Origin: a bacterium SCSIO 12741
GTDB taxonomy: Bacteria; Bacteroidota; Bacteroidia; Flavobacteriales_G; Salibacteraceae
Direction: 5' to 3'
DNA: 64,000 nucleotides
Assembly (NCBI GenBank): GCA_024398055.1
Contig: CP073749.1
Coordinates: 868,001-932,000, forward strand
This document shows, piece by piece, positions 3,634 through 62,996 of this stretch. Positions within the stretch are counted from its first letter, which is position 1; each line of letters opens with the position of its first letter. The position numbers and the translations under genes were made by a program. The notes below the pieces were generated by a model, which was given only the letters and a program-made list of their open reading frames with translations, made no database searches and was not told where the DNA came from.

Positions 3634-3754
3634 TTTATGCCTGTTACAAGTTTAAAAATACGTTTGAAAAACCGTCGAAATTCGCCTTCTGTGGGGGATT
3701 TCCCGCGTCACGCGAATATACAACTACTGCTTCAGAATTCCTAATGCGAAATCG

Positions 3755-6159
<2,405 letters not shown>

Positions 6160-6167
6160 TTTAGATC

Positions 6168-6206
6168 AAAAAAAAAGGACAAGGCAATGTTGCCCTATCC
6201 TTTTTT
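6168..6206. terminator. Terminator closing the ribosomal operon
   Basis: AAAAAAGGA (6171-6179) pairs with TCCTTTTTT (6198-6206), and GGCAA/TTGCC (6183-6187, 6190-6194) forms an inner stem. Read on the minus strand the hairpin is followed by a T-run. It lies between the rplQ stop and the carA start. Confidence 0.8.
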
Positions 6207-6232
6207 GTATTGTTTGAGTGTAGGATTCAATT

Positions 6233-6826
6233 CTATTCTTTGTCTCCTTCCTTTTTGCTTTTTTCTTCTGATCCTTTATCAGAATCAGCTTTCGCTTCTG
6301 CTTTTGGAGCAGCTTCAGCGGCAGGAGCTTCTTCAACTTTCGCTTCTGCTTCAGGAGCAGCAGCCTCAGTTGTTTCAGCTTGAGCCTCCGCTTTAGGAGC
6401 AGTAGAAGCAGATCCACCGCGACGACGACGACGGGTAGTCTTCTTCTTGGCATCTTGACCGTACAGTTCGTTGAAATCAACCAGTTCGATCATACACATT
6501 TCAGCACCGTCACCCTTACGAGATCCTGTTTTGATAATGCGGGTGTATCCACCTGGTCTGTCGGCAATTTTAGGAGCCACTTCGCGGAACAGTTCGGAAA
6601 CTGCCACTTTATTTTGAAGGTAGCTAAACACCACACGTCTGGAGTGAGTAGAATCCGTTTTTGATCGGGTGATCAAAGGCTCTACATACCGTCTTAGTGC
6701 ACGAGCTTTAGCAACAGTCGTGTTGATGCGCTTATGCTCGATCAGGGAGCTGGCCATATTTGCCATCATCGCCTTTCTGTGACCGGCTTTTCTACCTAAG
6801 CTGTTTGTTTTATTATTGTGTCTCAT
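6233..6826 (-). CDS. rplQ: Ribosomal protein L17 with long acidic/basic tail, 197 aa
   Basis: Large-subunit protein near the exit tunnel. Residues 1-120 are a standard bacterial L17 core ([17 protein letters not shown] start, [27 protein letters not shown]). The usual length is about 120-130. Here an extra stretch of about 70 residues follows: first a run of Lys and Arg, then a repetitive Ala/Glu/Lys low-complexity tail. Such tails are common in Bacteroidota L17. The gene is the last of the alpha operon, 34 bp after rpoA, and is followed by a terminator. Confidence 0.97.
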
Positions 6827-6860
6827 CTCAACAAATATTCCTCTTTAAACCTTCCTCTTC

Positions 6861-7850
6861 TTAGTCTTTGTCTAACTTGTACTTGGACAAGTTCATTCCA
6901 AAGGACAATCCTTTCGCCTCTACCAATTCTTCCAGTTCGGTCAAAGACTTCTTACCAAAGTTTCTAAACTTCAGCATGTCGTTTTTGTCGTACTGTACAA
7001 GATCTCCGAGGGTATCGATTTCCGCTGCTTTCAAGCAGTTCAATGCACGTACACTCAAGTCCAAATCAACCAATTTGGTTTTAAGCAATTGACGCATGTG
7101 CAATGAAGTCTCATCGAATTCTTCTTCAGAAGCTTTTTCTTCTGTATCCAACGTGATCTTCTCATCAGAGAACAACATAAAGTGGTGGATAAGAATCTTA
7201 GCGGCCTCTTTCAAAGCATCTTTAGGATGAATGGACCCGTCTGTTTCAATATCAACAATCAATTTCTCGTAATCCGTCTTTTGCTCAACACGGTAGTTTT
7301 CAACCGAGTATTTCACGTTGCGGATAGGAGTAAAAATGGCATCGATCGGAATTACGCCAATAGCCAAATCAGATTTATTTTCTTCAGCAGGAACATATCC
7401 GCGACCTTTATTGATGGTCAATTCCATCTGGATGTCTACGGACTCGTCCATGTGAGCGATCACTAAGTCAGGATTCAATACCTGGAAGGCAGAAGTAAAC
7501 TGACCGATATCACCAGCGGTAAGAGTTTCCTTTCCGCTTACTTTGATGATCACTTTTTCGCTGTTAATATCTTCGATTTGTTGCTTAAACCGAACTTGCT
7601 TCAGATTCAGAATGATTTCGGTAATATCTTCCGAAACACCCTTCAAAGTGGAGAACTCATGATCAACACCTTCTAATTTTACAGATACCACTGCAAAACC
7701 TTCAAGAGAAGACAGAAGGATACGTCTTAATGAGTTTCCGATGGTAATTCCATAGCCAGGCTCCAATGGTCTGAATTCAAAACGACCATTTTGCTCGTCT
7801 GACTCAATCATGATTACCTTATCGGGCTTCTGAAAATCTAGGATTGCCAT
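6861..7850 (-). CDS. rpoA: RNA polymerase alpha subunit, 329 aa
   Basis: Assembles RNA polymerase through its N-terminal domain (about 1-235; signatures [18 protein letters not shown] and KGRGYVPA) and contacts activators and upstream DNA through its C-terminal domain (about 255-320; [35 protein letters not shown]). Full length. It lies between rpsD and rplQ, the usual alpha-operon position. The 96-bp gap separating it from rpsD is the largest between neighbouring genes in the ribosomal block and holds several inverted repeats. Confidence 0.98.
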
Positions 7851-9710: not shown

Positions 9711-10497
9711 ACTTTTTTTTATTATCCAATACCTTTTCTATCTCTTCAAAACTTGACAGAATATCTGCCTTGCCGTTCCTGATGGCAATATCGTGCTCAA
9801 AGTGCGCTGAAGGTTTTCCGTCACGTGTTACAATGGTCCAGCCATCGTTCAATTGTTTCACGCCCCGTACTCCCAGATTGATCATTGGCTCAATTGCCAA
9901 TGCCATTCCGGTTTTCAACATCTTACCCCTTCCTGGCTTCCCGTAGTTAGGAACTTCGGGACCTTCATGAAGATCGCGCCCCAACCCATGACCGACTAAT
10001 TCACGAACCACACCATAGCCGTGATTTTCCGCATGAGTTTGAACTGCATAACCAATATCACCAATGCGATTACCAGTTATGGCTTGTTCAATACCGAGGT
10101 ACAAACTTTCTTTGGTTACTTCCAAAAGCTTTTTCACTTCCGGAGCAACTTCACCAATTTCAAAGGTGTAAGCTGAGTCACCACAAAAACCATTAAGAAC
10201 AACTCCGCAATCAATCGAGGCAATATCCCCGTTTTCAAGCGGTTTATTTGTAGGAATCCCGTGTACCACTTGCTCATTTACTGAGAAACAAAGGGTATTT
10301 GGAAATCCGCCAAATCCTTTAAATCCTGGCTTAGCTCCATGATCGCGGATAAACTCCTCTGCGATCTTGTCCAAATCGAGCGGAACAACTCCAGGCTCAA
10401 TTCGTTTAGCTACTTCCGCCAGGGTTTTGCCAACAAGCAAACAACTCTCGCGGAGGATCTCAATCTCTTCGTCAGTCTTGTAAAAGATCTGCGCCAT
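9703..10497 (-). CDS. map: Methionine aminopeptidase type I, 264 aa
   Basis: Removes the initiator Met from new cytoplasmic proteins. The five metal ligands of the pita-bread fold are visible: Asp in [11 protein letters not shown], Asp in GDSAYTF, His in [13 protein letters not shown], Glu in [10 protein letters not shown] and Glu in AHFEHDIAI. Length fits type Ia enzymes. The start shares one base with the secY stop (10497), and the end overlaps infA. adk, which lies between secY and map in many other bacteria, is absent here. Confidence 0.97.
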
Positions 10498-11849
10498 TAG
10501 ATTGCTGCTCCTCCGGTGCCATAAGCACCAGCCGTAGAACGACCACTAATTTTTCCAGACTTCATCAGTCCGTCATATTCACGCATCAACAGGTAGCTTT
10601 CTACTTGCTGAAGTGTGTCCAAAATTACCCCTACCATGATCAACAAACTGGTTCCACCAAAGAAGTAAGCAAACTGAGTACTTACTCCTGCGATCATAGC
10701 AAATGCAGGTAATATGGCTATCACTCCCAAGAAAATAGATCCAGGGAGAGTAATTTTTGAAAGAATGTTGTCCAAGAAATCAGCCGTAGCTTTTCCAGGA
10801 CGAATACCGGGAACAAACCCACCGTTCTTCTTCAGGTCATCTGCCATCTGATTCGGGTTAATGGTAATCGCGGTATAGAAATATGTAAATGCAATAATCA
10901 ACACAAAGAAGGTAAAGTTGTACCAGAACCCTGTGATGTCCGCAAATACGGATGCAAAACTGGTCAATGCACTGGACTCATCAGAAGAGAATCCAACCAA
11001 AGTCATTGGCAAGAACATCAAAGCCTGAGCAAAGATAATTGGCATTACACCAGAAGCATTTACTTTCAATGGAATGTAGTTACGAGCTCCACCGTACTGG
11101 CGGCTACCTACTACGTTTTTCGCAAAATTAACCGGTACCTTACGTACACCCTGTACTAACAGGATAGTAGCTACGGTAACCAAAAGAAGGAATACCATCT
11201 CAACCAGGAACAACACTGTACCACCAGCTTCAACACCCAAACGGCTCTCAAATTCAAAGATGATAGCTGTTGGGAAGTTGGCGATAATACCGATCATGAT
11301 CAACAAGGAGATACCGTTACCCAGTCCTTTGTCGGTGATTTTCTCACCCAACCACATTACGAACATGGTACCAGTAACCAAAAGAACGGTAGAAGAAATC
11401 CAGAAGAATGGTCCGCTGCTTACCATAGCTTCAGCTGGCACCTGAGTAGCGATATACCCTGGAGCCTGAGCCAAACAGATGGCGATAGTCAACAAACGAG
11501 TCCACTGTGTAATTTTCTTACGACCGCTTTCTCCTTCTTTCTGCATCTTAGCAAACTGAGGAACTGCAATTCCCAGCAGCTGCATAACAATCGATGCCGA
11601 GATATAAGGCATAATACCCAGGGCAAACACAGATGCTCGTGAAAAAGCACCTCCCGCAAACATGTTTAACAATGATGCAAGTCCTGTACCCTGGCTGGCA
11701 TATTGTTCCAACATAACCGAGTCTACACCCGGAAGAACAATAAACGAGCCCAAACGATAAATAAGCAAAAAGAACAACGTATTCAGGATTCGAATACGTA
11801 GATCTTCTATTTTATAAATGTTTACAAATGTCCTTATTAATCTCTTCAT
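10497..11849 (-). CDS. secY: Preprotein translocase subunit SecY, 450 aa
   Basis: Channel subunit of the Sec translocon in the inner membrane, which exports the signal-peptide proteins encoded elsewhere in this window. About ten transmembrane helices can be seen, starting with LFFLLIYRLGSFIVLPGV. The plug and helix 2 region (GAFSRASVFALGIMPYISASI) and the cytoplasmic loop with AKNVVGSRQYGG are conserved. It follows rplO by 13 bp and overlaps map by one base. The length is normal. Confidence 0.98.
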   Translation of the reverse strand: MKRLIRTFVNIYKIEDLRIRILNTLFFLLIYRLGSFIVLPGVDSVMLEQYASQGTGLASLLNMFAGGAFSRASVFALGIMPYISASIVMQLLGIAVPQFAKMQKEGESGRKKITQWTRLLTIAICLAQAPGYIATQVPAEAMVSSGPFFWISSTVLLVTGTMFVMWLGEKITDKGLGNGISLLIMIGIIANFPTAIIFEFESRLGVEAGGTVLFLVEMVFLLLVTVATILLVQGVRKVPVNFAKNVVGSRQYGGARNYIPLKVNASGVMPIIFAQALMFLPMTLVGFSSDESSALTSFASVFADITGFWYNFTFFVLIIAFTYFYTAITINPNQMADDLKKNGGFVPGIRPGKATADFLDNILSKITLPGSIFLGVIAILPAFAMIAGVSTQFAYFFGGTSLLIMVGVILDTLQQVESYLLMREYDGLMKSGKISGRSTAGAYGTGGAAI

Positions 11850-55231: not shown

Positions 55232-56482
55232 ATGAGAAACCTGGCCTTGTTGCTTGCCCTGACCTTGACTCTATCCCTTGGTGCGAAAGAAAAAATCGTT
55301 GACAAAAGCGGCAAAAAACCCAAGTGGGTCAATACGCTTGCTACTGGATACATTATTACCATGGCAGGAGATGCCGATCTTGAATCTGCCAAGCAAAAGG
55401 CTTTGGTAAGAGTGAAGGAGCAAATTGTATCCTCTATTGCTGATAATGTGCGTACCACTTCTAACCTCAGTTCAGAGGAGCAATCCAAGAATAAGCAAGT
55501 CGAATTCTTTATCGAAAACTACTCCTCGGCCACTACAACCGAATCTGGGAAAACCGATTTTGTAAAAGGGATTTCCATCAGCAAAGTGGAGGATTTTTAC
55601 TGGGAGAAAGTTTACGACACCGACAAGAAAAGTAACCGCTACGATTACCACATTAAATATCCATTCAGCCAAGCAGAGCTGGACGAGTTGATCACGGATT
55701 ACAAGCGTAAAGACGCTGAATTGACCTACGAGCTGGATAAAATTGTCAATGCTATTCCGGAATTGGACAAAGTGGAAGATATTCAGTCCAGTATTGCCCA
55801 ATTATCTACCCTCAAAAACAGTTTTGTTGACCTTCGCCAAGACCGAGCCATTGCTGCTATCTCTGAGCTTAGAAGTATGATCAAAAACATGCAGGTAGTA
55901 GCCGTTTCACACAAATTGGGCATGCTTGAGTTTGAACTGCAATATGACGGGCGTTCATTTACCTATGGCAAAAATCCTAAGGTAACTTCAGCCTGTGCAG
56001 ACATCCTCAATACACAGTCATCTGACGGCCGAGTATTGGTTAAGTACAACGCCGACTACTGCATCGAAGATGATCCTGAAAACGGTATCGATGTACTCTA
56101 CCGAATCGGGTCGGACCGAGTTACTCGCCGCTTTAGGTTTGACGTTACTTCAGAAAAGGTAGAACTTACAGGAAAGGATCAGGTAGTATTTGAGCCTGCT
56201 GGTTCTGGTTATAAAGTAAGCTTGACCCTGGTTGAGAAATACGGAAACACCTTTCGCATTGAAAAAATTGACCTGACTGTTCCCGGCGAGCCATCCATTA
56301 CCTTGCTTCCAGGAACAGATCCTTATTCGGGCAAAGGAGTTCATTTAATCACCTGTGAATACAAGGGTGATATACCCCAAAAGAAAAACGGCACCTTGAG
56401 GGGCACCGTTTATTATACTGCGGAAAAATCCGGTCAATCCGGACGGGCCTGGTTAAGAAACTTGCCCTATGAGGTTCGTTAG
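55232..56482 (+). CDS. Exported LPP20-like protein, 416 aa
   Basis: Signal peptide at about 1-18 (cleavage near LGAKE), no lipid Cys. Residues about 28-75 (KPKWVNTLATGYIITMAGDADLESAKQKALVRVKEQI) look like the LPP20/CsgG-associated fold in which an Ala-rich helix follows a short strand. Then comes a helical region (about 150-225) and a C-terminal beta-rich part. Function is unknown; LPP20-like proteins are periplasmic or outer-membrane accessory proteins. It faces the four-gene operon 56479-60916 and its TAG stop interlocks with the last gene of that operon. Since exported DUF6175-type and LPP20-like proteins occur together in other Bacteroidota, it probably belongs to the same system. Upstream gap 55074-55231 has no exact TAnnTTTG match. 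Confidence 0.75.
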   Translation: MRNLALLLALTLTLSLGAKEKIVDKSGKKPKWVNTLATGYIITMAGDADLESAKQKALVRVKEQIVSSIADNVRTTSNLSSEEQSKNKQVEFFIENYSSATTTESGKTDFVKGISISKVEDFYWEKVYDTDKKSNRYDYHIKYPFSQAELDELITDYKRKDAELTYELDKIVNAIPELDKVEDIQSSIAQLSTLKNSFVDLRQDRAIAAISELRSMIKNMQVVAVSHKLGMLEFELQYDGRSFTYGKNPKVTSACADILNTQSSDGRVLVKYNADYCIEDDPENGIDVLYRIGSDRVTRRFRFDVTSEKVELTGKDQVVFEPAGSGYKVSLTLVEKYGNTFRIEKIDLTVPGEPSITLLPGTDPYSGKGVHLITCEYKGDIPQKKNGTLRGTVYYTAEKSGQSGRAWLRNLPYEVR

Positions 56483-57465
56483 TTTCCTCCTATTATTTCC
56501 TGAGCTTTTTCTTCTGCACGCATCGCAGCATCTTCTGCATCCGCGTCCTTCATTTCGCTAATAACCTTTTTGGTTTCGGCCATGGTTGACTCTGGCGTCG
56601 GTTCAGCATCCTGGGAAGCTGCCTCGGCTTTCGCCATTTCTTCGGCTTTAGCGGCCTGATCCGCGAGGTTCTTCTCTTTCAGTGCCTGGATTACTTCTTC
56701 CGATTTGGCTGAGCATCCTGGAGTCTGAACCATTTCTTCGTAGCGCTTCATAATCTCACCGCTTTCTGCGCCTGACTTAATCAAACCTAAAACCAGTGCC
56801 GAACGCTCTTCACAAAGTTGATTGTTGTGTTCGCTCAAGATTTCACCCATGGCATCATTAGCCCGTGACTTACACTCCGCACATACATCAGGAACGTTGT
56901 AGTAAACCGTTAGAGCCTCACGAGTCATTCCTCCTGTGGCCAATACTCGGGCTTGCTCAAGAATCTGCTCGCATTGTGCATTGTAGTACTCCACAATTTT
57001 CATTTTCCCCTTTTGAATCATGGCTTTAATTCCGGAATTCTTGGGAGTAATATTCTTAATGGCAGAGTTGTATGCCTTGGTATCATTCTCCCCTACACCC
57101 TTCAGTTCTTGCGTATAGTTGTTGAATACCGCTTCCGAATACAAGTCAATCACATAGAGGTCAAATTGCAGCGTAACCGTCTGCATAGGAGGCGCTGTCA
57201 TGGTTACATTCTTGTCAACCAATGAAACTCTACCCACCAACGCAAATTGAGAGCTTTCGCCTTTAGCTGCCAGTCCAGTTGCTGTGGCCAATTGCATCAA
57301 TCTCCCTTCCAACATTTTGACGGAGTTTTCACTCATTCCTTCCGATTTCAAAACGATAGGTTTAAGCGCAATTCGTTCTAAATCGTCCATGGCACCGCGA
57401 TCATTTTGAGCCACCGAGCCCAAAGTGAAGCAAACGCCAATCATTAACATTATCCAGTTTTTCAT
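56479..57465 (-). CDS. Exported protein of unknown function with Ala/Glu-rich tail, 328 aa
   Basis: Signal peptide about 1-19 (GSVAQND). Mature N-terminal domain at about 30-155, with alternating strands (FALVGRVSLVDK, VTLQFDLYVIDLYS) and the block LKGVGENDTKAYNSAIKNI; this looks like an accessory alpha/beta domain of the kind seen in CsgG/TolB-N-like envelope proteins. A Cys-containing helical repeat follows (about 160-265: VEYYNAQCEQIL, VPDVCAECKSRAND, LCEERSAL), with a TPR-like feel. The C-terminal 60 residues are low-complexity Ala/Glu/Lys. It is the last gene of the minus-strand operon, 9 bp after the DUF6175 gene. Function unknown. Confidence 0.78.
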   Translation of the reverse strand: MKNWIMLMIGVCFTLGSVAQNDRGAMDDLERIALKPIVLKSEGMSENSVKMLEGRLMQLATATGLAAKGESSQFALVGRVSLVDKNVTMTAPPMQTVTLQFDLYVIDLYSEAVFNNYTQELKGVGENDTKAYNSAIKNITPKNSGIKAMIQKGKMKIVEYYNAQCEQILEQARVLATGGMTREALTVYYNVPDVCAECKSRANDAMGEILSEHNNQLCEERSALVLGLIKSGAESGEIMKRYEEMVQTPGCSAKSEEVIQALKEKNLADQAAKAEEMAKAEAASQDAEPTPESTMAETKKVISEMKDADAEDAAMRAEEKAQEIIGGN

Positions 57466-57474
57466 AAGTCTTTG

Positions 57475-58461
57475 TTATTTCTCACCAATAATCACCCAAG
57501 CTTCGCCCAGGCCTTTTTGATATACTTTACATTCCAGGTTAAACGGTTCTTGTGCCAGAAACTTTCTCAAATTATTGGCGAATACCCGGGAGTCCATTCC
57601 CCGTTCACGACCATTTCTTTCGTAGGTCAAGGGAATACGAACCTGTTCAAATTTCATTTGATTGGCAGTAACAGTAGAAAGGTTGTAACGCTGCTTAACC
57701 GTGTTCTCAGCTACCCAGTCGTCGATAAAGATGTTGAGCTCTTCGTTCTCTCCATTGTAGTCATAGGCCTCTTCTAAATCAACCGGTGAACCATCCCAAA
57801 CTTTAACCTGAAAAGTAATTTCACGTCCTTTCTCGAACATGTCTTCGAAATAAGTTTGAAGCGTATTGGAGAAATTATCCATGTTAGCCAAAACCGCTTC
57901 CTCTAACAATGTGGGAACATCAGCCGAAAATGAAGGGTTTCCGGTTCCCTGGGCTCCAGCAATTTGCTTATTGGTGTATGAATCCAAGCCCTGAAGGTTG
58001 AAGCTAATGGTCTTCTTAGGTCCAACTTCGTTAACCGTGTAAGTCAATTGAATGATGATGTCTGCCTGAGCCGTACGCTTAAGTACATCAATAGGCGATT
58101 CGCTAATCATCGAACCTTGTTTACTCATCATCACCGAAGATTCGGCAGCTTCTTGCTTAATTGACTTAAGTTCCGATTCCAGGTTTTTCAGAGGAAATCC
58201 TCTTTCGGCCATCATGGTATTGATCTTACCAATTACCAACAACAAATCAGGATCACCTTGAAGAGCGGCCGTGTAATCGGGCACTTCCATTATGGTTCCT
58301 ATGTTGTCAAACTTCTGCATGTAACCCGCTTGCTTACAAAATGCATCACTGGGCACTACCATAAGGGTAGGTTTCTTTACTTGAGCTGTAACCATTCCGG
58401 CCAGCATTAAAAAACCGGCTACCAAACCGAGTCGAGCGAATAGATTGCGCTTAAAATCCAT
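57475..58461 (-). CDS. Exported DUF6175 family protein, 328 aa
   Basis: I recognise the layout of the Bacteroidota family DUF6175. It opens KPTLMVVPSDAFC, then MQKFDNIGTIMEVPDYTAALQ, ERGFPLKNLESELKSI, the central QADIIIQLTYTVNEVG strand, DSYTNKQIAGAQGTG, and a C-terminal domain with MKFEQVRIPLTYE and a final KGLGEAWVIIGEK. A signal peptide (MVTAQ) follows the Met at 58461. The frame opens at 58488, but the ATG at 58461 (MDFKRNLF) is chosen because it has a normal signal peptide and reduces overlap with the upstream gene to 11 bp. No biochemical function is known for the family. Confidence 0.82.
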   Translation of the reverse strand: MDFKRNLFARLGLVAGFLMLAGMVTAQVKKPTLMVVPSDAFCKQAGYMQKFDNIGTIMEVPDYTAALQGDPDLLLVIGKINTMMAERGFPLKNLESELKSIKQEAAESSVMMSKQGSMISESPIDVLKRTAQADIIIQLTYTVNEVGPKKTISFNLQGLDSYTNKQIAGAQGTGNPSFSADVPTLLEEAVLANMDNFSNTLQTYFEDMFEKGREITFQVKVWDGSPVDLEEAYDYNGENEELNIFIDDWVAENTVKQRYNLSTVTANQMKFEQVRIPLTYERNGRERGMDSRVFANNLRKFLAQEPFNLECKVYQKGLGEAWVIIGEK

Positions 58462-58957
58462 AATCCAGGGATTTAATAATTCCATCATCTTCCAATTTTT
58501 TTCTCAAGGCTGCATGATTTACTGAAACAACCATCGCCGCTTTCGTTTGTTTTCCCACCATTGTTCTTTCGGTAATTCCTCCGGTAGAATTCACATAGTT
58601 TAGATACTCTCCGCCGGGTTCGAAAAACTTCTCAAAGTAAGCCTCGTTTTGGCTTCGTTCTTCGGGCTTAACCAAAGGCTTTTTCATACAGCCTGATCCT
58701 TGAGTAATCCCTCTAAACATGACTGCTTGTACGCCATTCATTTTCGCATAAATTCCGGCATTCTTGTCCTTTTTAAAGTAGAAGTACACCTTAATTAATT
58801 GGGTACCTTCTGCTCCAGTTCCAGCACAAACGGCTTCATAATCTGTCTTTGTGGTCCCGGCAATCTTTTTCTTCTTTTTCGATTGCGCCATTCCCTCCAT
58901 GCCCATAAACAGGAGTAGGGCCAACATCAAAATGGGAAAATTCCTCAGCATTTTCAT
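58451..58957 (-). CDS. Small exported protein of unknown function, 168 aa
   Basis: Signal peptide about 1-24 (MEGMAQ), followed by a KKKKK basic stretch and a single compact domain. Two Cys (YEAVCAGTG and GSGCMKK) could form a disulfide. Alternating strands such as GTQLIKVYFYFKKDKNAG suggest a beta-rich fold. Not recognised. It lies between the 649-residue protein gene (9-bp gap) and the DUF6175 gene (11-bp overlap), so it is certainly part of the same operon. Confidence 0.72.
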   Translation of the reverse strand: MKMLRNFPILMLALLLFMGMEGMAQSKKKKKIAGTTKTDYEAVCAGTGAEGTQLIKVYFYFKKDKNAGIYAKMNGVQAVMFRGITQGSGCMKKPLVKPEERSQNEAYFEKFFEPGGEYLNYVNSTGGITERTMVGKQTKAAMVVSVNHAALRKKLEDDGIIKSLDYGF

Positions 58958-58966
58958 TACGTATAT

Positions 58967-60916
58967 TTATAAATCAATTCGAATTCCGGCTTCAAGGGTA
59001 AGTCCCTCACGACCTGGAAAAAAATCTGTGTACTTCCGATCCAAATAAAACTTATCCTCTCTATCCACTGCATTGAAAAAGGGGATGTAATAATCCGCCC
59101 TTCCATACACTTGAAGCGGGTAATACAAATACCTCGCCACTTGTAGGTTTACCAAAAACAAGTTCCCTCTTACTTCTAACACATTGGCGTCAAGTGAATA
59201 TTGCGGAAAAGTGGAAAAGACCTGGTAATTGTAAATTCCTGCTCCCGTATTCACCCGATTTCCATCTGAATCTCTCAAAATTGTACTAAAGCCCCACTCA
59301 TAGCACCAGCCGATACCCGGGGTAATGGTAAAGTTGCGACCAACTGCAAAATCCCTTGAGAATCCACCCTGCAAACGGTAAAAATTAAATGGAGCTGACC
59401 AAATTTCGTCGCTTTCGTAATCCGAAAAATCGGGATGGGTAGCCAAAAATTTGTGGAACCGATCGTAGTAATCCAAATGCGGACTGTTGTAGGTATTAAA
59501 ATCCGCGGCTCCTTCAATCCACAATTTCCATCCTGGATCCATATTGGGTAATTGCGACCCAATATAATTGGAGAGATTAAAGTCAAACCCAAGCATAAAG
59601 CCTCGAATTTCGCCAAAGCCGTAACCTGCACGAATTCCAATTCCCAAAGCTTTTTTCTGTTCGATGAGCATTCCCGGTCTGATTTTTCTACCAGCTACCT
59701 GAAAAAATTGAGAGGGCTCGGTATCTCCTTCTGAAATCTTGCGGTTGTCCACCACCGAACGAACCCGAATTACCCCTTTTCTCTTGGATGCTACGGTTCC
59801 ATCTTTCCCTTGGCGATCTTCCCAAACGAAGTAACGCTGTTCCACACCAAGTCCTTCTTTGCGCCCCACTTTGGCACGAATTGGGTGGGTATCTGTAATT
59901 CTGGTTTTTACCCGGAATGAAGGAATTTTACGTTCAAATCGATCGATGGCTCGATTCACTCCATCTTGCATCAACTTAACCAACATATCGTCCTTGGATC
60001 CCTGTTTCTTATTCATGAATCCATATCCCGGATTAAACTGAGTTCCCTCAACCGAAAAACTGGAACGAAAAACAAAAGTGAATGGAATATCGAAGGTATC
60101 GAGGGCCGCTTTACGGGCCTGCTTCACACTATCTGGGTCAGTAGAGTTTACCCACAATTGCGAATAGAACTCTGAGCTCAATTCGTCATTGAAATCAATC
60201 TTGTATAGGTAAACGTGAGCATTTCCTTTATAACCGTTTTTGGATCGCTCTACCGGAACAAATCGTTGATTGGTAGCCTGAGCTCTTTTACGGCGTTGAG
60301 CATCCTGCTGGTCGTAAATCTCTTTCATGGTGCGTATACCGTTGTATCGCATCACGAGTACATAACTCTTATCAATGAGGGTTAGGGCCATTTCATCCAA
60401 AAAGGACAAACCTCTTCGGGTCATCATGGCTTCCTTTACCTGCTCATCGCTCGCATTGTATTGACCACGTTGCGTTACCCGATCCATGTTCATCGAGCCA
60501 TCTTCCTGCTGGTTGTACCAGATTTCAAGAATGTGTTTACCGACCTGTTCATGGCGCATTACATTGCCCAAGGAATTTTCGCGAACGCCTGCTGTTTGAG
60601 CATTGGTTCCACCGCCCGATGCACCAGGCCCAAGTGAGCGTGACTTTTCGAGCACATTATCTTCCAGGCGATTGTCGTTGAACTTATCCGTTACCCGCAC
60701 CTTTTCAAATAACTTTTGCATCCGCGATTCGAAGCGATCACCGGAGGGCTGGTAGAGGTAGGTTAAAGAAAGCCTGTCATAGTTGGCGTCAACCTTTTTC
60801 GGATTGAGGGTATCTGACTGCGCAAATACGGTGAATTGAAGAAATAGGGCGACGAACGATAGGAAGGCCGAAGGAAAAAAACCGTTCATGGAGAATGAGT
60901 TTGTTCTTTTATTCAA
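58967..60916 (-). CDS. Large outer-membrane protein of unknown function, 649 aa
   Basis: First gene of the operon. A signal peptide ends FTVFAQ (about residue 33). The periplasmic part (about 35-400) contains a Gly/Asn stretch, a helical region and the segment FVFRSSFSVEGTQF. From about 405 onward the sequence has alternating aromatic and polar strands (GIRAGYGFGEIRGFMLGFDF, FYRLQGGFSRDF, LFLVNLQVARYLYY) ending LEAGIRIDL, consistent with a C-terminal outer-membrane beta barrel. A second Met at residue 10 is a possible start, but the first gives a normal positively charged signal peptide. TAATTTTG at 60925-60932 on the minus strand could be its -7 element. Family not recognised. Confidence 0.78.
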   Translation of the reverse strand: MNKRTNSFSMNGFFPSAFLSFVALFLQFTVFAQSDTLNPKKVDANYDRLSLTYLYQPSGDRFESRMQKLFEKVRVTDKFNDNRLEDNVLEKSRSLGPGASGGGTNAQTAGVRENSLGNVMRHEQVGKHILEIWYNQQEDGSMNMDRVTQRGQYNASDEQVKEAMMTRRGLSFLDEMALTLIDKSYVLVMRYNGIRTMKEIYDQQDAQRRKRAQATNQRFVPVERSKNGYKGNAHVYLYKIDFNDELSSEFYSQLWVNSTDPDSVKQARKAALDTFDIPFTFVFRSSFSVEGTQFNPGYGFMNKKQGSKDDMLVKLMQDGVNRAIDRFERKIPSFRVKTRITDTHPIRAKVGRKEGLGVEQRYFVWEDRQGKDGTVASKRKGVIRVRSVVDNRKISEGDTEPSQFFQVAGRKIRPGMLIEQKKALGIGIRAGYGFGEIRGFMLGFDFNLSNYIGSQLPNMDPGWKLWIEGAADFNTYNSPHLDYYDRFHKFLATHPDFSDYESDEIWSAPFNFYRLQGGFSRDFAVGRNFTITPGIGWCYEWGFSTILRDSDGNRVNTGAGIYNYQVFSTFPQYSLDANVLEVRGNLFLVNLQVARYLYYPLQVYGRADYYIPFFNAVDREDKFYLDRKYTDFFPGREGLTLEAGIRIDL

Positions 60917-62546: not shown

Positions 62547-62996
62547 ATGGTATTCCGGATTATCCTGATAAGCGTGTTTTTTCTGGGGTCGGTTCTTTCC
62601 TCCTTTGGTCAGAATGGAATTGAGGCTGGTATTCGGATCGGCAATAGTCCCGGACGCTCTCCCGGAGTTGGTATCGATGGCACCATGGGCCTTTCAGCTC
62701 ACACCCGCATGCACCCTTCCTTCTATTGGCTAAATAATGGAATTGGCGTTGGACTTTACCTCGATCGACTCTTCGACTTTGGCAAACGATTCCGTTTATA
62801 TCCAGGTATTGGCCCGGAATTCTACTTTGATCAGAATTTTGAAATGGGCATAGCCGCGAATATGGGATTCGAATATGCTTTTGAATTCCCGATTACTTTC
62901 GGCTTTGATTATCGACCGTCATTCACCTTTGTAAACCGTACCGATCTTTATACAGAAAATTGGGGTTTTACGCTACGCTATCGGCTGAAGGATTAG
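62547..62996 (+). CDS. Small exported beta-barrel-like protein, 149 aa
   Basis: Signal peptide about 1-21 (SSFGQN). The rest is Gly- and aromatic-rich with alternating strands (GVGLYLDRLFDFGKRFRLYPGIG, FEYAFEFPITFGFDYRPSF) and ends GFTLRYRLKD, as in small eight-stranded outer-membrane barrels of Bacteroidota. It lies 30 bp after comM. The 3' end overlaps the convergent DUF983 gene by 29 bp. Not assignable to a specific function. Confidence 0.7.
   Translation: MVFRIILISVFFLGSVLSSFGQNGIEAGIRIGNSPGRSPGVGIDGTMGLSAHTRMHPSFYWLNNGIGVGLYLDRLFDFGKRFRLYPGIGPEFYFDQNFEMGIAANMGFEYAFEFPITFGFDYRPSFTFVNRTDLYTENWGFTLRYRLKD

Follow-up and report, generated by a model that had tools for sequence, protein, structure and literature searches.

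Five genes encoding exported proteins, hereafter A to E, lie together in the genome of the Bacteroidota bacterium SCSIO 12741, and it is well supported that four of them, A-B-C-D, form a conserved, co-occurring gene set. The explanation that we favour, and to which we give about an even chance, is that the five genes encode a flagellum-independent ring or scaffold of the outer membrane, built from the domain types of the Vibrio H-ring (FlgT, FlgO and FlgP); its assembly, its barrel and its function are what we infer from the evidence below.

The window, i.e. the whole stretch of DNA that was analysed, spans 64,000 nucleotides, in which the five open reading frames (ORFs) were found at the coordinates and on the strands given by a first-pass annotation made from the sequence alone. 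The minus strand carries gene A (58967..60916; 649 aa, TTG start), gene B (58451..58957; 168 aa, a small exported protein), gene C (57475..58461; 328 aa, a DUF6175 protein) and gene D (56479..57465; 328 aa), and the plus strand carries gene E (55232..56482; 416 aa), which encodes an exported LPP20-like protein and faces D. The spacing is as compact as had been described, with a 9 bp gap between A and B, an 11 bp overlap between B and C, a 9 bp gap between C and D, and interlocked stops of the facing genes D and E that overlap by 4 bp. The ORF list places the start of C at 58488, position 58461 being an in-frame ATG. The start of gene A is TTG 60916, with ATG 60889 as a possible alternative; the TTG start yields the better-looking signal peptide, with KR close to the start. 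Judged by eye, each of the five proteins has a hydrophobic N-terminus and, behind it, a site of the AQ or GA type, in agreement with the export signals previously attributed to them. Since A, B, D and E have no Pfam or NCBIfam match above the curated cut-off, an enzyme family was recognised in none of these four, consistent with the lack of known enzymatic motifs noted in the first pass. Sequence searches with all five family profiles against solved structures returned no convincing relative (best E 0.03). Scanning for sigma-70-type promoters gave 7 sites vs 10.4 in shuffled sequences, i.e. fewer than in the shuffles, and terminator-like sites numbered 9 vs 6.8. In the literature searched, DUF6175 was named in no paper found, and among the matches listed, none was recognised as describing this gene cluster.

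The first-pass assignment of C to DUF6175 was borne out by a match to PF19672 of 386 bits vs a cut-off of 23 (E 1.2e-115) that covers positions 1-293 of the 293 in the profile. This family was used to survey genomic neighbourhoods: 23 DUF6175 loci were found, of which 19 were inspected with wide flanks (G137, G237, G338 and G390 were left out). The order A-B-C-D occurred in 8 of the 19 loci, with a rearranged version in one other, and six loci contained two fused genes, B+DUF6175 and LPP20+D-like. Locus L024, one of those with A-B-C-D, belongs to Flavobacterium noncentrifugens. Co-occurrence was computed from one sample of 395 genomes of the phylum, in which A and DUF6175 had 16 genomes in common (A in 17, DUF6175 in 19) and D and DUF6175 had 13 (D in 14, DUF6175 in 19). 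Counted by taxonomic family, A and C shared 7 (of 8 and 9, respectively) and D and C shared 9 (of 9 and 9). A and C sat on different contigs in eight of the genomes that have both, and their co-occurrence is therefore not explained by linkage alone. For A, B, C and D, the survey showed linkage also in distant genomes, while E stood beside A-B-C-D in no other locus inspected; the proposal of one envelope system is supported for A-B-C-D by this linkage and co-occurrence. The opposite explanation, that these are separately acting exported proteins co-transcribed by chance with no complex between them, is favoured by the unlinked E and by the eight genomes with A on another contig; however, co-occurrence without linkage and the repeated domain fusions argue for a joint function, and we consider this explanation unlikely.

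The fusions also connect D with LPP20. All six LPP20+D-like products passed the LPP20 threshold of Pfam, with E values from 6.7e-6 to 5.9e-10, and match D in their C-terminal part. The corresponding region of D is its N-terminal domain (residues 46-152; 57010..57330, minus strand), a domain that in six distant genomes is joined to LPP20, and for which hhalign comparisons with the C-terminus of the fusions gave probabilities of 95-97 (E 2.5e-8 and 8e-11). When the fused-domain profile was run on the 105 ORFs of the window, D ranked first (E 0.008), the next at 0.26. It is therefore well supported that the LPP20 domain and the D-type domain belong together, and the earlier view of this region as CsgG/TolB-like was not supported: comparison with CsgG-type proteins reached a probability of 1.7, and the C-terminal domain of the LPP20 fusions matches instead. 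Beyond this domain, D continues with a Cys-containing helical repeat and an Ala/Glu-rich tail. The first-pass description of the repeat was right in outline: residues 165-251 (56713..56973, minus strand) contain four recurring cysteines, the set of Cys165, Cys198, Cys218 and Cys251 being complete in 10 of 15 family members, and matches to repeat-type Pfam families were weak. The D family tree, with long branches and 9 of 12 inner branches open, did not separate descent of the window D from the operon D and descent from the D2 found at E loci. BLAST favours the operon type, with 37% identity to the D of L033 (E 2e-42) vs 23% to the D2 of L050 (E 2e-9).

That E itself is LPP20-like, as had been suggested, is well supported. 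With a profile built from seven LPP20-domain proteins above the Pfam cut-off, E was the best of the 105 ORFs (E 1.3e-4, next 0.72), the LPP20-like core lying at residues 29-91 (55316..55504, plus strand). The Pfam LPP20 model (PF02169) gave no match to E, and the hhalign comparison of E with LPP20 was weak (probability 22 and 6). Of the 395 genomes, two contained the close family of E, one of these on a weak match. Five of the seven E loci outside the window were inspected, and in three of these, relatives with the same chromosomal site, E faces a D paralogue. Within the order (n=42), E and DUF6175 shared 3 genomes, of 8 and 4, respectively (p 0.018, kinship ignored). As for B, the description as a small two-Cys protein stands (Cys44 and Cys90); its homologues in L029-L032 and a second B copy in L027 have the look of lipoproteins by eye. 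A likeness of B to LPP20 was unsupported in profile comparison. Four profile links, B-E, B-LPP20, C-D and A to a CsgG-like profile, were too weak to use.

Gene A, whose homologues are found in the operons of L024-L028, L032 and L033, encodes an exported protein with a putative FlgT-like periplasmic part and a probable C-terminal outer-membrane beta-barrel. The fold search returned, as sole PDB matches at E<=1e-3, FlgT (3w1e, E 2.7e-6) and a chain of the LPHT-ring (8z5n_0, E 1.8e-5), the FlgT match covering its middle and C-terminal parts. Over residues 46-423 (59648..60781, minus strand), alignment of a model with a mean pLDDT of 55 gave Z 8.4 with 3w1e (201 residues aligned, rmsd 10.3) and Z 9.6 with 8z5n_0 (202 residues, rmsd 10.6). 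Both matches cover the two domains, at an rmsd >10 A and 7% identity, and Z values of 8.4-9.6 are little above the 7 to 8 reached by models without clear relatives. The whole model is poor, with residues 423-649 below a pLDDT of 50; in residues 46-423, ten-residue blocks ranged from 36 to 88 and exceeded 60 in 27 of 38. No sequence search linked the A of the window to FlgT; its periplasmic part is indicated to be FlgT-like by a low-confidence model. Residues 425-649 (58970..59644, minus strand) form the probable beta-barrel, a region missing from homologues of about 404 aa and with a like region in those of L032, L037 and L039. The beta-alternation z against shuffles was 2.2 for the A of the window and 5.5, 4.2 and 4.4 for these three homologues, respectively, vs -0.5 and 0.0 for two N-terminal parts used as controls, and the L039 homologue matched OMP_b-brl_2 at E 5e-4, under the cut-off of that model. 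The first-pass view of A as a barrel with a large periplasmic part is accordingly plausible, its barrel half on an alternation z of 2.2 and its periplasmic half on the modelled fold match.

The AlphaFold model of C was of better quality (mean pLDDT 86.5), and for its residues 28-210 (57832..58380, minus strand) Foldseek and VIA-align point to a CsgG/PelC/LptE/TolB-N/FlgT-type fold. This call applies to that segment, residues 213-328 being barely covered by the comparison and Foldseek TM-scores across the whole model being <=0.28. Foldseek matches included FlgT (E 2e-4), CsgG (E 8e-4) and LpoB (4q6z, E 0.02), and VIA alignments gave Z 10.6 with CsgG (141 aligned, rmsd 7.0), 10.3 with PelC (109 aligned, rmsd 2.8), 9.6 with the DUF330 protein 2iqi, 8.9 with FlgT (135 aligned, rmsd 3.5) and 7.6 with PqiC. 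Comparison of DUF6175 with CsgG/LpoB-like proteins by hhalign gave a probability of 82 for whole and 63 for trimmed profiles (E about 1e-5). The CsgG/PelC/FlgT-type fold of the N-terminal half of DUF6175 is thus well supported at the level of a predicted model; since the fold also occurs in LptE, TolB and ribosome-hibernation proteins, it fixes no function. Within this fold class, PelC forms a ring of twelve and PqiC a ring of eight, according to PMC12141448 and PMC10897342, respectively. Unlike the window set, PelC and PqiC are each a single lipoprotein serving a named transporter, and no such transporter was recognised in the cluster.

With CsgG as the top Z for DUF6175, a secretion channel of the curli kind might be envisaged, in which DUF6175 or CsgG-like partners would form an outer-membrane pore exporting a substrate. 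Related clusters do contain CsgG/LpoB-like genes, beside or near B-C-D in 3 of the 19 loci (adjoining in L029 and L031, near in L030) and beside C only in one (L035). However, none of the five window proteins has a Pfam CsgG match, C is devoid of a lipobox, no curli subunit gene was recognised by eye beside the cluster, and the best match of A is FlgT, not CsgG; the sole CsgG match of the genome is partial and lies elsewhere, next to an LPP20 lipoprotein. A channel of this kind seems unlikely. Even less credit is given to a regulation of the cell wall, whereby LpoB-like periplasmic proteins, acting from the outer membrane, would switch on peptidoglycan synthases. The CsgG/LpoB-like proteins of L031 and L035 have LpoB as their top Pfam match (that of L030 falls under the Pfam cut-off, LpoB E 0.025), LpoB is one of the DUF6175 fold neighbours, and an M23-type peptidase gene was seen by eye both in the window, five genes upstream of E, and within the same block in L050, L053 and L054; yet LpoB ranks low for DUF6175, and in the loci read, the conserved A-B-C-D cluster included no peptidoglycan enzyme. 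Finally, a collar of the type IX secretion/gliding machinery is very improbable: such machines are common in Bacteroidota and Cys-rich periplasmic proteins would suit envelope assembly, but DUF6175 was present in 19 of the 395 genomes, a much narrower spread than is usual for that machinery, and such genes were not recognised by eye beside the clusters.

As to the transport or assembly complex suggested in the first pass, the fold evidence singles out no particular transporter and points instead to a FlgT-CsgG-LPP20-type ring or scaffold. In the proposed outer-membrane ring, A would be anchored through its C-terminal barrel and show a FlgT-like two-domain arm to the periplasm, on which C, D, B and E may assemble into a ring or collar lying against the outer membrane from inside; B, D and E would be stiffened by disulfides. 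Its job is the least certain point: by analogy with rings that serve flagella, Pel export and PqiABC, it might brace or gate an envelope structure, or link the cell wall with the outer membrane. PMC6375700 lists FlgO, FlgP and FlgT as the H-ring, and PMC12222027 attributes a common fold to FlgP, Lpp20 and FlgT. The window set resembles the Vibrio H-ring by the FlgT-like two-domain periplasmic part of A (in a low-confidence model), the LPP20-type domain of E and the CsgG/TolB-N-type domain of C. In contrast to the H-ring, A ends in a probable barrel and its aligned part leaves out the FlgT N-terminal domain, and the set adds B, D and the second half of DUF6175. Elsewhere in this genome, another locus (G000:C1:3682659-3685453) also combines an LPP20 protein (PF02169, E 3e-9) with a CsgG/LpoB-type protein that has weak TPR matches, their genes overlapping by 4 bp; a D-like C-terminus is weakly indicated there (E 0.03-0.06, two-protein search). 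Unlike the window set, this locus encodes two lipoproteins only, and DUF6175, A and B were not recognised in it.

FlgI, the sole flagellar marker searched, was not found in the genome of SCSIO 12741 (95.9% complete), whereas 3 of 14 control genomes matched; on this search, the window set was not found to belong to a flagellum. A FlgI match was obtained for 3 of the 25 genomes tested, located on other contigs, and for 2 of the 23 DUF6175 genomes, in which the set may have a flagellar role. The FlgT-, LPP20- and CsgG-type domains are kept together in genomes that gave no FlgI match, 21 of the 23 with DUF6175. More tentatively, the set may be a free-standing relative of the H-ring, with a ring of FlgT-, CsgG/FlgO- and LPP20/FlgP-type domains anchored by a FlgT-barrel fusion in a non-flagellar machine of Bacteroidota, a possibility that we consider less likely than not.

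DUF6175, a Pfam family without assigned function, can now be given a fold class, partners that recur and a role open to testing. If a ring is indeed made of these parts, a non-flagellated organism would offer a way to address where the extra rings of high-torque flagella came from; and were the kinship with the H-ring true, it would suggest that flagella did not invent this ring kit but took over an older one of general use at the outer membrane.

The five ORFs for exported proteins listed by the first-pass annotation are all present in the window: A (58967-60916), B (58451-58957), C (57475-58461) and D (56479-57465) on the minus strand, and E (55232-56482) facing them on the plus strand. Adjacent ORFs are separated by 9 bp (A/B and C/D) or overlap, by 11 bp (B/C) and 4 bp (D/E). 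The assignment of C to DUF6175 was borne out (E 1.2e-115), and A, B, D and E had no Pfam or NCBIfam match above cut-off. Judged by eye, the flanking genes are of the fabD and yifB/comM types; the genome is a single contig of 5.10 Mb.

DUF6175 was detected above cut-off in 19 of 395 genomes of a phylum-wide sample, 4 of 42 in the order and 4 of 35 in the family, one of these four (G399) being weak, and the protein of Flavobacterium noncentrifugens is 53% identical. Nineteen loci were inspected among the 23 DUF6175-bearing genomes (17 fetched with wide flanks, L024 and the window), and eight of them (window, L024, L025, L026, L027, L032, L033 and L034) have A-B-C-D in this order. Within this arrangement, B is duplicated in L027 (6598-7617, plus strand), the second tandem copy being lipoprotein-like with both cysteines and the first having neither. 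In L034, A and B are split into several ORF pieces (9925-11700, minus strand), the B piece lying about 0.7 kb from C, and C and D are intact; this may reflect assembly error or decay. The A homologue of L026 (9811-12204, minus strand) has an N-terminal extension of about 424 residues seen in no other homologue. All four genes also occur within about 6 kb in L028, in a changed order and with other genes interspersed. A CsgG/LpoB-like protein immediately precedes B-C-D in L029 and L031, precedes it with one intervening gene in L030, and adjoins C only in L035. Those of L031 and L035 exceed both Pfam cut-offs, that of L029 is slightly above the CsgG and slightly below the LpoB cut-off, and that of L030 falls below cut-off (LpoB E 0.025), with 31% identity to the L031 protein. 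The L030 gene is flanked by two alike-looking exported proteins of 520 and 572 aa (3659-7837, plus strand), which had no Pfam match above cut-off.

At L036-L041, the six most distant loci, two adjoining ORFs make up the set: the first combines a B-type domain with DUF6175 and the second LPP20 with a D-type domain, some having weak Ig-like matches in between. Among about 600 ORFs searched, the first ORF was matched by the B profile (E 6e-12 to 3e-3) and the DUF6175 profile (E at most 2e-14); in all six, the D profile found its match at the C-terminus of the other ORF (E 4e-8 to 1e-2). The Pfam models for DUF6175 and LPP20 (E 6.7e-6 to 5.9e-10) were likewise above cut-off in 6/6, and profile-profile comparison of D with the LPP20-fused domain gave a probability of 95 (E 2.5e-8). 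A relative of A adjoins the fused set in L039 and lies about 4.7 kb away in L037.

The family of gene E was found in 8 of 42 genomes of the order and in 2 of 395 across the phylum sample, one weakly. The flanks inspected at the 18 remaining DUF6175 loci contained no E gene, the sole faint match to the E profile there being the LPP20 protein of L039 (E 0.04). The chromosomal block of the window recurs in L050, L053 and L054, by eye with M23 peptidase, MerR, epimerase, fabD, E, a D-like paralogue (D2) opposing E, yifB and a DUF983-like gene, plus aroB in L050 and L053; none of the three contains A-B-C in this block. The D-like gene of L054 was assigned by position and alignment (BLAST against window D only 0.41), and none was found at the E loci L051 and L052. 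Directly after yifB, the window encodes a 149-aa exported protein (62547-62996, plus strand) that by eye resembles a small outer-membrane barrel; no such gene was seen at the corresponding place in L050, L053 or L054. One genome, G402, carries both the E-D2 locus (L050) and, on a different contig, an A-B-C-D operon (L033). By BLAST, window D is closer to the operon type than to D2, a placement that the D tree did not resolve. We infer that operon and E locus were joined in the window lineage, in either direction, with operon D replacing D2.

By its profile matches, E is LPP20-like. It was the best of 105 window ORFs against a profile of seven LPP20 proteins (E 1.3e-4), and, of the five further members of the E family, those of L051, L050 and L052 were the top non-training matches among 601 ORFs (E 5e-4 to 3e-3); the Pfam LPP20 model did not match E, and hhalign gave probabilities of only 22 and 6. 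A joint role of E and D is hinted at in two independent ways, by the repeated pairing of the two genes and by the LPP20-D fusions.

Across the phylum sample, A was found in 17 of 395 genomes, 16 with DUF6175 (the exception being G280), and D in 14, 13 with DUF6175 (the additional one being G120), six DUF6175 genomes falling under the D threshold. The three genomes with DUF6175 and no A (G154, G158 and G318) are those of L029-L031, with the CsgG/LpoB-like gene. Co-occurrence with DUF6175 gave p 1e-24 (A) and 5e-19 (D) with kinship ignored, and by family p 1e-6 for A (7 shared, of 8 and 9) and 1e-10 for D (9 shared, of 9 and 9), assuming 56 families from labels and with profiles derived from DUF6175 loci and, for D, also E loci. 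A and DUF6175 lie on separate contigs in eight f30 genomes, so their co-occurrence reflects more than linkage, although contig ends may hide some.

The predicted model of C (pLDDT 86.5) structurally matches, over residues 28-210, GNA1162, FlgT (Z 8.9, rmsd 3.5, 135 aligned), CsgG (Z 10.6, rmsd 7.0, 141 aligned), PelC (Z 10.3, rmsd 2.8, 109 aligned) and DUF330 proteins. The fold class is broad, since LptE, TolB and ribosome-hibernation proteins match too (Z 7 to 9). For A, mean pLDDT was 55 and the putative barrel region was below 50; in residues 46-423, blocks ranged from 36 to 88, 27 of 38 exceeding 60. Among PDB structures, this low-confidence model had only two matches at E<=1e-3, with Z of 8.4 and 9.6 spanning both domains: FlgT (3w1e, of Vibrio alginolyticus according to PMC12222027) and, in the LPHT-ring entry 8z5n, the unnamed chain 0, whose length and match lead us to read it as FlgT. 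ATP synthase subunits came next (Z 7.8, the 335-423 part only), Z of 7 to 8 being often reached by models without clear relatives. Residues 425-649, lacking in A homologues of about 404 aa, gave a beta-type alternation z of 2.2 by our own measure, with 4.2-5.5 in three relatives and -0.5 and 0.0 in two N-terminal control stretches. Four cysteines occur together in 10 of 15 D relatives; at aligned columns, the B pair is complete in 6 of 12 and absent in 4, L030 and L032 being intermediate, a pattern compatible with a putative disulfide.

The flagellar marker FlgI was not found in the SCSIO 12741 genome (95.9% complete; 3 of 14 control genomes gave a match) nor, this genome included, in 22 of 25 tested (the 23 DUF6175 genomes, G280 with A only and G120 with D-like only); in G109, G243 and G120 it is on other contigs than the genes of the set. 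The only CsgG and LPP20 matches of the SCSIO 12741 genome adjoin at a second locus (3682659-3685453; L102:6660-9454), as a CsgG/LpoB-type lipoprotein with weak TPR matches overlapping an LPP20 lipoprotein by 4 bp.

No description of this gene combination, its putative FlgT-barrel protein or its occurrence without detected FlgI was seen in the literature searched; the individual parts belong to known kinds. FlgP, H. pylori Lpp20 and FlgT have one common fold (PMC12222027), the H-ring comprises FlgO, FlgP and FlgT (PMC6375700), and PelC and PqiC form twelve-membered (PMC12141448) and eight-membered (PMC10897342) rings. PelC and PqiC share the fold class of DUF6175. The domain calls and genetic linkage are evidence; ring formation, layer order, barrel anchoring and function are what we infer, the low-confidence model of A being a main weakness and contacts among the parts being putative. 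On these grounds, A, B, C, D and E would build an outer-membrane ring or scaffold, in which A would be the anchor in the outer membrane and C, D, B and E would form periplasmic layers on it.
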